Below are positions 18,625-32,880 of a DNA stretch of 33,726 bases, piece after piece. This stretch comes from Chthoniobacterales bacterium (GTDB lineage: Bacteria > Verrucomicrobiota > Verrucomicrobiia > Chthoniobacterales > UBA10450). The DNA lies in the NCBI GenBank assembly GCA_025934755.1, contig JAICWQ010000012.1, positions 1 through 33,726 on the forward strand, in the 5' to 3' direction. Under the pieces are notes generated by a model. It ran no database searches and was not told the origin of the DNA. It saw only the letters and a list, made by a program, of their open reading frames with translations. Position 1 is the stretch's first letter. Every line of letters starts with the position of its first letter. Position numbers and translations under genes: made by a program.

Positions 18625-18775
18625 AAAATCCGAAATTCGAAACCCGAATTTCGAAATAAATCAGAAACCCAAAATCTAAAGTCTCGACACCTGTCGCGGA
18701 CGTGTTTTGAATTTTATGCTTTGAACATTCGAATTTGTTTCGGATTTCGATATTCGACTTTCGGATTCATCACAC
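18625..18775. repeat. Degenerate inverted 7-nt repeat tract upstream of the MBL gene
   Basis: AT-rich sequence with loose 7-nt units: ATTCGAA/ATCCGAA-type on the left (about 18625-18680) and the reverse complement (GAATTTG, TTCGGAT, TTCGATA, TTCGACT) on the right (about 18730-18775). It is open in the frame of the next gene from a TTG at 18622, but that translation is repetitive and not protein-like. It fills the gap of 192 bp between the CysJ-like stop and the MBL ATG. Confidence 0.6.
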
Positions 18776-21223: not shown

Positions 21224-21279
21224 AGGTAGCGGCGGCTCACCGAGCCGCCAAGGGCGATTGAGGTCAATCGCCGCTACCT
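21224..21279. repeat. Cloverleaf palindromic repeat, copy D (most complete)
   Basis: A 56-bp element between two convergent genes: AGGTAGC (21224-21230); hairpin GGCGGCTC/GAGCCGCC with loop ACC; linker AAG; hairpin GGCGATTGA/TCAATCGCC with loop GG; GCTACCT (21273-21279). All three stems pair perfectly. The stop codon of the YfhO-like gene (TAG, 21276-21274) lies in its right arm. It could form a bidirectional transcription stop. Confidence 0.9.
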
Positions 21280-23508
21280 CAGCTTCTCGTGCGATCGCAC
21301 GGCGCCGAACATCCCTAAAATCCAGATTGCCGCACAGACGATCGAAATTGCGCTGCCAACGACTAACCACCACGGACGATAAATCAGGCTTAAACGACCG
21401 TGCGCGCCCGCCGGAACTTCGACGGTTGGAAATAATCCGCGATACGAATTGACTGGAAGGGCTCGATTTCCGACCGTCGCTTGATATCCGCGAAAGTAAG
21501 GCCGCGAAAAAGTCAGAAGCGCGTTTTCGCCACCGACCGGAACGTCGACATTTACGGCGACGTGATTTCGCGAGTCGTCGATTTCCGAGATTTTTGCGGT
21601 CGCGAACTCTCTTCCCGGAAAGGTGTCGATCCATTCAACTGAACGGACCCGGGCGAGCGGTCCGCCATTTCGATGAAAAACACGGCCATCGTCGCTGGAA
21701 AATTCCAGCTGCCACAGCGCCGTCATCGGTTCGACGCCAATTTCAGGGGCGATGATAATACCGTCGACCCCAAGCTGTTCCAGAATTCCACCGGGGCCCG
21801 ATTGGTTCTCGATCAGATATTTTCCGACGTCGGGGTCGATTTCGCCGTGGATAAAAAACTTGAACTCACGGGCCACGCCCGCCGCGAGAATCGGGCTGTA
21901 GCCATTGATGAAATGCAATTGGGCAAACATCGGAGTGCTGCCGGGCCGCGCCACCTGCCCGACCGGACCGTTTCGGTATTCGCGCCGGTAGGCGTACTCA
22001 GCCGGCGAGTAAATCGCGAGATAGAGACGATTTCGATCCAACGGTTCCGGTCTGATGAGGTCTTGAGAAAAATTGTATTTCGGGACGCCGCAATTCGGCG
22101 GAATGCAAATATAAGTCGCGAGCAAAACAGCAAAGGTGACGATTGGCGGCATCCACCGGCGCACTTTCGTGATGGGGAGGAACAACTCGAACAGCGCCCA
22201 AATCGCCGCGATCTGGAAATAAATCCAGGTCACCGTCGCGGCGTAGCTGCCACCAAGGTTGAAGACCGACATCGGGATGGTGATGATCAGCAAAAGGAGA
22301 AAGGCCGTGGAACCAACCGCCAGGCGTGGCCGAAGCTGCAGCACTTCAGCGGCGCAAAGCGCAAGGACCAGATGAAAAAATGGCAGCCACCGAAAACTCC
22401 ATCGAAAAAGCCCGGTGGTGGGAACCATCGCGAGCACAAGCAGAACGACGAGAAGGATCAGTTCCCACTTTATTCGCCGGAGGATTAAACGCGGCTGCCA
22501 AAGAAACCCGGCGACGAGCGCGGCCGGCGCTGCGAGACCGCAGGCAAGTTCAGTCGCAGTGTGAGGCAGGTAACGAGTGGAAAAATCGGCCCAATTCACC
22601 GTCCAACATGGCAAGATAAACGCCGGCAAAGCGCGCCAGGGCACGATCCATTGCCAATGCCCTCCCGCGGACTGCAACGAGCGAGCCGAACCCTGGACGT
22701 AATCGAAAATCGCCAGCCATGACGGCGCCGCTAATCCAAAGCCGAGCGCCACTCCGAACATCATCGGCCCGACCGATCTCCAATCCCGCGTTTGAGAGAA
22801 GGATTTGATCGCCAACCACGCGATCAAAAGGACAAGCATCAAAACCGTGTAAGGAAATCCCCCGGTAACGAGCAGATAGACAAACGGCGCCGGCCACAGG
22901 GCCGGAAGCAAACGCTCAACGCTCAACCTCCAACGCTCAACGCCCAATTTTCCGAGTTCCGCGTTGAGCGTTGAAAGGCGAAGCGATTTCTCACAGCCCC
23001 ACCAGGCCCACGGCAACCAGCTGAAAGCTGCGAGCGCGCCGAACCAATCCGTCGCGCCCCAGCAGATGATCCAGCCGTTCAGGGCGGCGACCAGTCCGAC
23101 AAAAATCGACAATGAAAAGGAAAGCTTTCGATTACGCGCGAGGACGAACGCTCCGGCCGCCAGGACAAAAAGATGAGTGATCGAGAGTGCAGCCGCTTGT
23201 TGCGGGAAGGTGAGAGGGAATTTCCAAATCAAAATAACAGCGGCGTTTACAAAAATCGAAAAGGTCCCGTATTGAAATTCGCCCGCGAGATTAGAGCAGA
23301 CCCACGAGTAAGGACTGAGCAGCGGGAGATGACCTTCGCTCCAACTTCGGGCAACGTCGGCGAATACTGGGAGGATCGACAATTCATAATCGTCGTTCCA
23401 AAAGATAAGGCGATCGTGCCAGAGCAGCGCCAGACAGAACCCGATAACGAGCAGCCCGGCAATGAAGGCGCCGAGAATTTCCGAACGCAATGAGCGCGGT
23501 TCGGACAT
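21274..23508 (-). CDS. YfhO-like large membrane protein (GT-C-like)
   Basis: A 744-residue integral membrane protein with 11-13 hydrophobic segments and a soluble C-terminal region. The early periplasmic loop (FWNDDYELSILPVFADVARSWSEGHLPLLSPY, near 37-66) and the end (FSRPYFRGYQATVGNRALPV, then VPAGAHGRLSLIYRPWWLVVG) match the YfhO pattern, a GT-C-like family that helps glycosylate lipoteichoic acid in Bacillus. Here it may modify a cell-surface polymer; not proven. Residues 176-201 (LRLSTLNAELGKLGVERW...) are encoded by an inserted inverted 7-nt repeat and interrupt a cytosolic loop between membrane segments without breaking the frame. The stop lies in repeat copy D; the start is 10 bases from a 7-nt tract. 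Confidence 0.82.
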   Translation of the reverse strand: MSEPRSLRSEILGAFIAGLLVIGFCLALLWHDRLIFWNDDYELSILPVFADVARSWSEGHLPLLSPYSWVCSNLAGEFQYGTFSIFVNAAVILIWKFPLTFPQQAAALSITHLFVLAAGAFVLARNRKLSFSLSIFVGLVAALNGWIICWGATDWFGALAAFSWLPWAWWGCEKSLRLSTLNAELGKLGVERWRLSVERLLPALWPAPFVYLLVTGGFPYTVLMLVLLIAWLAIKSFSQTRDWRSVGPMMFGVALGFGLAAPSWLAIFDYVQGSARSLQSAGGHWQWIVPWRALPAFILPCWTVNWADFSTRYLPHTATELACGLAAPAALVAGFLWQPRLILRRIKWELILLVVLLVLAMVPTTGLFRWSFRWLPFFHLVLALCAAEVLQLRPRLAVGSTAFLLLLIITIPMSVFNLGGSYAATVTWIYFQIAAIWALFELFLPITKVRRWMPPIVTFAVLLATYICIPPNCGVPKYNFSQDLIRPEPLDRNRLYLAIYSPAEYAYRREYRNGPVGQVARPGSTPMFAQLHFINGYSPILAAGVAREFKFFIHGEIDPDVGKYLIENQSGPGGILEQLGVDGIIIAPEIGVEPMTALWQLEFSSDDGRVFHRNGGPLARVRSVEWIDTFPGREFATAKISEIDDSRNHVAVNVDVPVGGENALLTFSRPYFRGYQATVGNRALPVNSYRGLFPTVEVPAGAHGRLSLIYRPWWLVVGSAISIVCAAIWILGMFGAVRSHEKLR
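22911..22974. repeat. Inverted 7-nt repeat inside the YfhO-like coding sequence
   Basis: Left arm: AACGCTC, AACGCTC, AACCTCC, AACGCTC, AACGCCC (22911-22945). Right arm: GCGTTGA twice (22961-22974). TCAACGCTCAACGC-type pairing gives a stem of about 12-14 bp around a 17-nt loop. The tract is translated as part of the membrane protein. Confidence 0.85.
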
Positions 23509-23517
23509 TTAACAGAG

Positions 23518-23559
23518 CAAACGTCCAACGTCCAACGTCCAACGTCCAACGCCCAATGA
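23518..23559. repeat. 7-nt tandem repeat, left flank of the four-helix-bundle gene
   Basis: Six consecutive units: CAAACGT, CCAACGT three times, CCAACGC, CCAATGA. It begins 10 bases upstream of the YfhO-like start codon and ends 14 bases before the four-helix-bundle stop codon. Confidence 0.88.
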
Positions 23560-23573
23560 AATAGCATGAAATG

Positions 23574-24077
23574 TCATGTCGCGTTTCGTTCGGCAGTTCG
23601 AATACTGGAAAAGAAGATTTTGATGAGCTCTTCCGTCTCACCAAGAATGGCGGTCAGTTTGGAGCTCGGAACCATTTCGGATCTAGCCGCAAGTCGGAGC
23701 CAGCGTCGTGTTTCTTTCAGCTCCTTAAGACAGATCTTCAGCTTGTGAATGAAGTCTTTTCGCGATTCTGCAGCCTCGACTTCTCCATGATTGCCGTAGG
23801 GCGAAGTTGCACAGCGCAGCACCTGGCCAGCCAAGTGATTTGCCGCCCTCGTATTTGGCAATGCATCAACCAGCCGGATAATGCGCGCGCTGAATTCAAG
23901 AAGCCTGTCTTCCAGATCGAAGATTTGTCTTTGCTCGATTTGAGCGTTGGGCGTTGGGCGTTGGGCGTTGAGCGTTGAGTTCGATTTTCGGGAAGAAAAA
24001 TAACTTGGTGCGTCTTCGCGCAGATGATTCTTACCACTCCAAAGGATTAATCCCGCGGCGTTCGATGTTTTCTTCAT
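23574..24077 (-). CDS. Four-helix-bundle protein (23S rRNA-IVP/S23/Avd-like)
   Basis: The conserved part begins near residue 50 of the longest frame (QRQIFDLEDRLLEFSARIIRLVDALP, nucleotide about 23930) and runs about 118 residues to the stop. It has the IVP/S23 pattern: RLLEFSARIIRLV, a GQVLRCATSPYGNHGEVEAAESRKDFIHKLKI block and a final ELKETRRWLRLA/EELIKIF helix pair. Relatives are encoded in intervening sequences of some bacterial 23S rRNAs; Avd proteins of diversity-generating retroelements share the fold. Residues 34-47 come from a 7-nt repeat, and the first 33 look unconserved. The ATG at 24077 overlaps the MBL stop (ATGA), but no standard start sits nearer the domain. Inverted heptad tracts flank the gene. 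Confidence 0.82.
   Translation of the reverse strand: MKKTSNAAGLILWSGKNHLREDAPSYFSSRKSNSTLNAQRPTPNAQIEQRQIFDLEDRLLEFSARIIRLVDALPNTRAANHLAGQVLRCATSPYGNHGEVEAAESRKDFIHKLKICLKELKETRRWLRLAARSEMVPSSKLTAILGETEELIKIFFSSIRTAERNAT
23944..23978. repeat. 7-nt tandem repeat, right flank of the four-helix-bundle domain
   Basis: Five consecutive units on the plus strand: GCGTTGG three times, GCGTTGA twice. These are the reverse complement of the CCAACGC-type units at 23518-23559, so the two tracts form inverted flanks about 385 bp apart. They are translated as STLNAQRPTPNAQ in the longest frame. Confidence 0.88.
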
Positions 24078-25106: not shown

Positions 25107-25826
25107 CTAGGTGGTGAAGAAAAGTCGCAGACGGGGACGTAAACCGAGTGGCGGTAACGGAGGCGGCAGACAAACAAAGATCCCGTAACCGCGCTGGGAA
25201 TGCGGGCGTGGGTCGCGCTCGACATCCAGCTCACGGAAATCGAGAAAAAGCGGATCGTCGCCGAAAAACGCGTTAGAGAAATTATGTTCGACAAATTTTC
25301 GTTGCGGCGAATTGGGGGGGAAATCGTGAACGAACACTGCGCACGGTTTTCCGGTTTGTAAAAGATCGATTGCCAACTTTATCGCGCGAAAATCCTTGGG
25401 GCCGTCGATCAGAATTGCATCGCCGGCCTCCAGGCGTTCGGGCAAAATTTGCCGCGAGTCGCCGTAAAGCAGATCGACGTTGGATTCGTTTTTCAACTTC
25501 GCCTCCGCCGCGAGAGCGTTGTTCGATTCACGTTCGTATTCCACGCTGACTATCTGCGATTGGGGAAAGCAGCGGGCCAGAAGGAGCGTGCTTTTGCCGC
25601 GGGCCCGGCCGGATTCCAGAATCTGTTTCGGCGCGAACGGTTTCACAGCGGCATAAAACAAAAACATCTCGCTCTCCCAGATTCCGCCGAACCCGGCTTC
25701 GGGCGCGATGTTGGCGATGATTTGCCGATATTCCGGCAGCAATTGTTCAGCGCGTTCCGCGACAGCGGATGCAGTCAGTGACAAGTGACGAGTGACCGGT
25801 GACGAGTCCGGAGAAAAAGCCGGCAT
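25107..25826 (-). CDS. Class I methyltransferase-like protein
   Basis: A 239-residue protein. The middle shows a Rossmann methyltransferase-like order: QILESGRARGKSTLLLARCFP in place of motif I (ESG-x-x-RG-KS), IVSVEYE as the ribose-binding acidic strand, VDLLYGDSRQIL, and AILIDGPKDFRAIKLAIDLL, as in Methyltransf_24/cephalosporin-hydroxylase-like enzymes. FVHDFPPNSPQRKFVE follows. Function unknown; sugar or lipid modification is plausible next to the sulfotransferase locus. The N-terminus (PDSSPVTRHLSL) is encoded by a 7-nt tandem repeat, so the start may have been altered. The C-terminal tail (PPPLPPLGLRPRLRLFFTT) is Pro/Arg-rich and atypical. A palindrome follows the stop. Confidence 0.62.
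   Translation of the reverse strand: MPAFSPDSSPVTRHLSLTASAVAERAEQLLPEYRQIIANIAPEAGFGGIWESEMFLFYAAVKPFAPKQILESGRARGKSTLLLARCFPQSQIVSVEYERESNNALAAEAKLKNESNVDLLYGDSRQILPERLEAGDAILIDGPKDFRAIKLAIDLLQTGKPCAVFVHDFPPNSPQRKFVEHNFSNAFFGDDPLFLDFRELDVERDPRPHSQRGYGIFVCLPPPLPPLGLRPRLRLFFTT
25778..25808. repeat. 7-nt tandem repeat at the 5' end of the methyltransferase-like gene
   Basis: Units GTGACAA, GTGACGA, GTGACCG, GTGACGA and a partial GTC. It lies between the divergent methyltransferase-like and sulfotransferase starts and is translated in the former's N-terminus. Confidence 0.8.
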
Positions 25827-32523: not shown

Positions 32524-32880
32524 GGGGGCGCACTGGTTTCGACTCATTGTTGGAAGCGCAGGCGGCATGTCGAGGATGGTTCGTTGGCCTCGTTAAAAAC
32601 CGGACCAAAACAAATAAACGCAGATCACGAAGATCTCGCTCTCGCGGCTTAATTGACCGTGACGTTTTCGCAGCGACGCCTGCTGGCGGCGGAAACGGGG
32701 ACAGCAGGCTGGCGAATCGGCGGAGCGACCGCGTTTGATTCGCAAGATCGAATTCGTGGACGCTCGGAAGACGGCAGCGCGCCGGTGCGACGTCGGCTTC
32801 TCAGACTTTAACGCCGGATAAACATGTAGATGTCTGCGTGGATAGCGACGAGGACAGGGGTTCAACTCCCCTCGCCTCCA
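32524..32880 (+). ncRNA. ssrA: Transfer-messenger RNA (tmRNA)
   Basis: Rescues stalled ribosomes and tags the nascent peptide for proteolysis, with SmpB. The 5' end GGGGGCG pairs with CGCCTCC near the 3' end (seven pairs, one G-U) and the D-arm region has GGTTTCGACTC. A conserved GGCATGTCGAGG block lies near 32570. The T arm at 32854-32874 is GGGG-TTCAACT-CCCC. The tag frame starts at the GCA at 32620 and reads ADHEDLALAA before TAA (32650-32652), 10 codons as in the E. coli ANDENYALAA tag, ending ALAA. Length is 357. No CCA is encoded after the terminal A, so the CCA-adding enzyme would be needed. The open frames that cross it are shadows. Confidence 0.93.

Follow-up and report, generated by a model that had tools for sequence, protein, structure and literature searches.

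Inverted heptad arrays around a bacterial S23/IVP gene point to a possible new family of genetic elements that spread repeats

The window, which is the whole stretch of 33,726 nucleotides analysed here, comes from a Chthoniobacterales (Verrucomicrobia) genome of 2.97 Mb that is 98.5% complete. Its minus strand carries an open reading frame (ORF) of 167 amino acids (23574-24077), with a hydrolase-type ORF on one side and a 744-aa ORF on the other. The product belongs to the S23/IVP family of four-helix-bundle proteins. It matches PF05635 over residues 60-154 (positions 23616-23900; E=3e-14, 53.5 bits, curated cut-off 33.8) and TIGR02436 over residues 57-162 (E=2e-23, 82.5 bits, curated cut-off 24). 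These matches bear out an earlier note on this DNA, which had placed a four-helix-bundle (23S-IVP) gene between repeat arrays. The domain of the ORF also matches the structure PDB 2rld, and a profile built from the S23 proteins of this genome additionally finds PDB 2gsc. Both homologues have five chains.

Two arrays of a 7-nt word bound the gene. The 3' arm of the cassette (23520-23556) consists of 5.3 AACGTCC-type units (AACGTCC four times, AACGCCC). The 5' arm (23940-23979) has units of TTGGGCG/TTGAGCG, 5.4 of them at 23940-23977, which the gene strand reads as CAACGCC/CAACGCT. One array is the inverted copy of the other; the opposite orientation had been recognised before, and the earlier counts of six and five heptads were about right. 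The two arrays have period-7 scores of 28 and 29, as against a highest score of 12 in 60 Markov-1 resamples of the whole window. They are real and far above chance.

The reading frame traverses the upstream array. This array is translated within the 167-aa ORF (...STLNAQRPTPNAQ...), since there is no in-frame ATG, GTG or TTG between it and the domain. Wherever the array is not followed by a start codon, gaining or losing one 7-nt unit would shift the frame, so that copy number could switch expression. Throughout the window subfamily (window 23940-24077; loci L398-L421) the upstream array is usually translated, forming an N-terminal tail with TPNAQRR-type repeats.

The same architecture is found well beyond this locus. 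There are 18 PF05635 matches in the genome, and all 18 genes have inverted 7- or 8-nt arrays on both sides, as judged by eye over 200 nt on one side of each gene and 260 nt on the other (L007 and L020 only weakly). The words differ between elements. Three of them (L005-L007) carry GTGACGT-type words, L004 has TTGATAG, L016 has AATTGCC/AATTTCC, and L009 and L011 have TTGAG followed by three variable bases. A strict period-7 detector found only part of these arrays and missed the 8-nt and degenerate ones, so the two arms of each element were compared with each other instead.

The arm comparison covered 122 S23 genes from the family and 105 from other taxa, including Patescibacteria, Acidobacteria, Bacteroidetes, Gammaproteobacteria, Nitrospira, Chloroflexi-type Anaerolineales and Firmicutes. 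The genomes surveyed are mostly draft metagenome-assembled genomes, placed taxonomically through named relatives, and genome-wide counts derive from pattern and family searches. Matching arms (score of at least 13, a score that does not tell base-pairing apart from a common unit word) occur at 80.4% of 225 pooled S23 genes, against 1.4% of 294 same-geometry control window pairs. The commonest period is 7, followed by 8. The earlier note had named S23 genes without heptad flanks as one outcome that would speak against its proposal; the flanks are general, both within this genome and across phyla.

The most mundane account of these arrays is that they are ordinary slippage-prone simple repeats, with S23 genes nearby by chance. 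Heptad arrays are indeed abundant in these genomes. The account is nevertheless contradicted by the difference in arm matching between genes and controls, and by words that follow the protein across loci, and its probability is close to negligible.

S23 genes also adjoin such arrays on two cyanobacterial plasmids. On plasmid pANA02 of Anabaena sp. 90 (L321), a very long GTGACAG/GGAACAG array precedes an S23 gene located between cas6 and cas4, within a type I-D CRISPR-Cas operon. A pair of Calothrix plasmids has a larger region in common, and gives no junction information. A phage origin was considered and rejected, as a single query (L214) found no S23 match among 50,697 phage records.

A second gene type shows a similar arrangement. 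Genes for GxxExxY proteins (PF13366, PD-(D/E)XK) have inverted arrays in 27 of 29 cases, mostly of 8- or 9-nt units (L288-L317, L092). Their mean arm score is 20.8, compared with 10.2 for mismatched pairs.

Occupied and empty sites can be seen among relatives. They were sought by searching 61 family genomes with chimeric flank queries and then reading the junctions. At three sites (L013, L014 and L019) the flanks are separated by about 0-10 nt in relatives and by about 500 nt in this genome, and short spacers are found in relatives at the L008 and L004 sites. Divergence of about 15-25% between the flanks of the relatives and those of this genome blurs the exact junctions and any target-site duplication. 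An example for a varied site is the junction between sdhA and sdhB. Here the S23 cassette of genome G032 has the same word, those of G026, G010 and G053 have another, and G038 has a gene-less 8-mer hairpin. In G044 the L019 site is taken by a GxxExxY-type gene flanked by 9-nt arrays. A locus unchanged in all relatives was the other outcome named beforehand as unfavourable, and the empty sites of these other elements of the class show that it did not come about.

The window element itself behaves more conservatively. The window-type S23 gene is present as a single copy in 25 of the 61 family genomes, with 54-80% identity to the window protein, and has CAACG/GAACG/GAACA-type arms in 24 of the 25. 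These genes occupy at least three syntenic positions, the window position being common to G021, G044 and G039. The subfamily has therefore moved, but rarely. In two relatives, G005 and G022, the spacer at the window position contains no gene but a hairpin, about 105 nt long and made of the same heptads; the neighbouring hydrolase of G005 is 93% identical in protein to the one in the window. The corresponding spacer of G023 contains a hairpin of a 9-nt word.

Gene-less copies are also numerous within the genome. The pattern CAACGNNCAACGNNCAA has 45 matches, against 0 for the reversed pattern, although matches inside one array are not independent because the units are in tandem. Besides the cassette, gene-less arrays or hairpins of CAACGYY, the word of the window element, occur at about 20 loci. 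Clear hairpins are seen at C24, C180 and window 22911-22974, among others; elsewhere one arm has a degenerate partner, or the search for a partner found none.

The hairpin at 22911-22974 (arms 22911-22947 and 22950-22974) consists of the same heptads as the cassette and lies in frame within the coding sequence of the 744-aa protein (21274-23508). Compared with five orthologues, this protein has 18 extra amino acids at that place. Around it (window 22911-23010) the in-frame hairpin replaces target sequence and is not a simple addition. The 10-mer GAGAAATCGC at one edge of the hairpin is the reverse complement of sequence in relatives. Judging from this one 10-mer, there might have been a local inversion of target DNA.

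Seven of the roughly 20 gene-less CAACG arrays have TTCAGA within 45 nt (a hand count), compared with a random expectation of about 0.2. This box also follows arms in cassettes L402 and L403 and in the hairpins L322/L323, a sign that the gene-less copies and some cassettes may descend from a common source.

Other words are dispersed as well. GTGACNN, the word of the three cassettes L005-L007, gives 99 array matches versus 5 for the control, and one such gene-less array lies in the window at 25777-25803. The window also contains inverted AAATTCG/AAATCCG-type arrays around no S23 gene (18626-18763), with a unit resembling the arms of cassette L019 of the same genome. At another locus (L359; G000:C147:16687-16780) a CAACG array is directly followed by a TTCATCC/TTCACCC array, so that the elements are nested or adjacent.

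The abundance of gene-less arrays is associated with the gene. Among the 61 family genomes, the median number of CAACG matches per Mb (again non-independent within an array) is 9.7 with a window-type gene and 3.3 without (Mann-Whitney p=4e-5; genus-stratified permutation p=0.0016; p=3e-4 for genomes at least 90% complete). G031, G040 and G033 are exceptions, being rich in arrays and lacking a window-type gene. The association concerns a single subfamily and does not prove a causal link.

Both arms of one element carry the same word, and the word varies from element to element. The similarity of arm words climbs with protein identity (Mantel r=0.39; 0 of 2000 permutations). Proteins that are 80-97% identical have the same word in 41 of 41 pairs. 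At 70-80% identity, and counting only pairs with no common flanking DNA, the word is still the same in 47 of 78, compared with 0.9% of family pairs below 40% identity. As similar proteins have a common word at unrelated flanks, gene and arms move together. Plain co-inheritance on one element would, however, also be expected to make word and protein co-vary. A different possibility, that the word is copied from the target site, was rejected. At the sdhA/sdhB junction, L077-L079 share a word despite differing adjacent sequence, and other elements at this same site have a different word.

The earlier note had also proposed that the unit could be a mobile cassette. For the class, movement was not seen directly but is favoured by arms that similar elements keep at different loci, by words that co-vary with the protein, and by empty sites. 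For the window copy the proposal holds less well: its subfamily is mostly inherited in place, and the same spacer in two relatives has a gene-less hairpin in place of a clean empty site. The window copy is thus better called the gene-bearing member of a repeat family than a freely hopping unit.

The polarity of the arms is fixed as well. Among close pairs, 312 have the same orientation and 1 the opposite. Of 150 non-redundant elements, 126 have an upstream arm whose sense strand is rich in G and 22 one that is rich in C, with the window subfamily among the C-rich exceptions.

TRAP binds spaced triplet repeats. By analogy, an S23 ring might bind the array in its own 5' leader and control its own or neighbouring expression, the gene-less arrays being regulatory targets. 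The location of the upstream array just before or at the gene start and the conserved sense-strand polarity both fit such an autoregulator. It leaves unexplained the inverted downstream arm, the empty sites and the hairpin inserted in a coding sequence, and it sits poorly with an array that is translated in the window subfamily. On balance this explanation is rather unlikely.

The explanation given the greatest weight here, at about even probability, is a two-part repeat system in which an S23 protein recognises its own word and maintains or spreads gene-less copies of it. The window feature would be the gene-bearing member: a small gene for the S23 protein with, on either side and in opposite orientation, some 4-6 repeats of a word 7 or 8 nt long. 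Since the word changes along with the protein, and the polarity of the arms does not vary, recognition of this word would most likely take place on one strand, either of a transcript or of single-stranded DNA. Homologues with five chains and arms with about 4-6 units suggest that one unit may be bound per subunit of a five-membered ring. Recognition could then lead to the upkeep or spread of this word in gene-less arrays and hairpins, much like the partnership proposed for RAYT proteins and REPINs. Host enzymes would presumably supply the copying chemistry. Against such a two-part system stand the array-rich genomes G031, G040 and G033, which lack a window-type gene, and the fact that no catalytic domain is known in S23 proteins; the gene encodes no transposase.

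Among the closest known systems are the intervening sequences (IVSs) of 23S rRNA in Coxiella and Leptospira. They encode S23p, a protein of the same family, and as in the elements described here the ORF lies between inverted terminal repeats. In Coxiella, tandem GACAGAT heptamers precede S23p in a number that varies by strain, and the IVS has a terminal stem of 28 bp (PMC4990558), in keeping with the architecture seen here. The elements here differ in being inserted between genes in protein operons and in having per-element words with dispersed gene-less copies. A motif search found no 23S motifs at the loci examined, and the window element is not inserted in a 23S rRNA gene.

Another model is a passive selfish element acting at the RNA level, like a 23S rRNA IVS. 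In this model the arms pair in the transcript and RNase III cuts the stem, making insertion into an operon harmless, without any action of the protein on the arms. The arms are complementary, several cassettes lie between co-directional genes such as sdhA and sdhB, and the Coxiella IVS is excised by RNase III (PMC4990558). In Coxiella, S23p seems to go unexpressed and the cell can do without its reading frame (PMC4990558), which counts against the two-part system. Such a passive element would leave unexplained why element-specific words track the protein and why gene presence is linked to array density, and pairing alone does not need a tandem 7-nt period. It too is regarded as rather unlikely, although this model and the leader-binding regulator would each account for part of what is observed.

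The two-part system resembles REPIN/RAYT, in which a single-copy, mostly vertically inherited gene is tied to many gene-less inverted repeat pairs, with repeat types that differ by gene (PMC3116915). Here too, a single-copy gene goes with numerous scattered inverted repeats like those on its own flanks. RAYT, however, is a transposase of the tyrosine type, and no catalytic residues are known for S23, a small bundle of helices. The repeat here is a tandem 7-nt array where theirs is a REP palindrome. The window protein matches only PF05635/TIGR02436-type families, and no REP-associated tyrosine (HUH) transposase.

A link to diversity-generating retroelements was considered as well, with the S23 protein acting as Avd in these or other reverse-transcriptase elements. 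Avd (PDB 4DWL) and PF05635 proteins are related and have a similar four-helix-bundle fold (PMC10053308). An RVT_1 search of this 98.5% complete genome found no reverse transcriptase, which contradicts the link there unless the enzyme belongs to an unrecognised family. Moreover, S23 genes occur as single-gene cassettes or short ORFs in 59 of the 61 family genomes. A retroelement origin is thus very improbable.

Heptamer repeats have been described in several bacteria without a partner gene being proposed: GGGAATC in Xanthomonas, with 70-75 convergent inverted pairs per genome, GGGGA(T/C)T in Nostoc and TAACTGA in Beggiatoaceae (PMC4692102, PMC4679880). They are 7-nt intergenic arrays like those described here, where in contrast an S23 gene is associated. 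No prior link between S23 genes and element-specific heptads was found in the open-access literature, subscription literature being outside the search.

Taken together, the findings suggest that these genetic elements form a family, not recognised before, that spreads repeats. A wider proposal is more tentative, and is thought somewhat less likely to hold than to fail: S23 rings, each reading its own heptad and driving hairpin spread, may form a transposase-free, REP-like mobile class across bacteria, one that includes the 23S rRNA IVSs, explains the orphan heptamers and has a parallel in the GxxExxY class with its 8-9-nt words. If true, this would give a role to PF05635, a widespread uncharacterised bacterial protein family, and a partner gene to the dispersed heptamer repeats of unexplained origin in Xanthomonas, cyanobacteria and Beggiatoaceae. 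It would also provide a shared framework for the 23S rRNA intervening sequences. Since each element has its own word beside its own protein, a protein-to-word code would be readable from sequence and testable by a simple binding assay.

Apart from these elements, the window contains a tmRNA gene (32524-32880) with the tag ADHEDLALAA.
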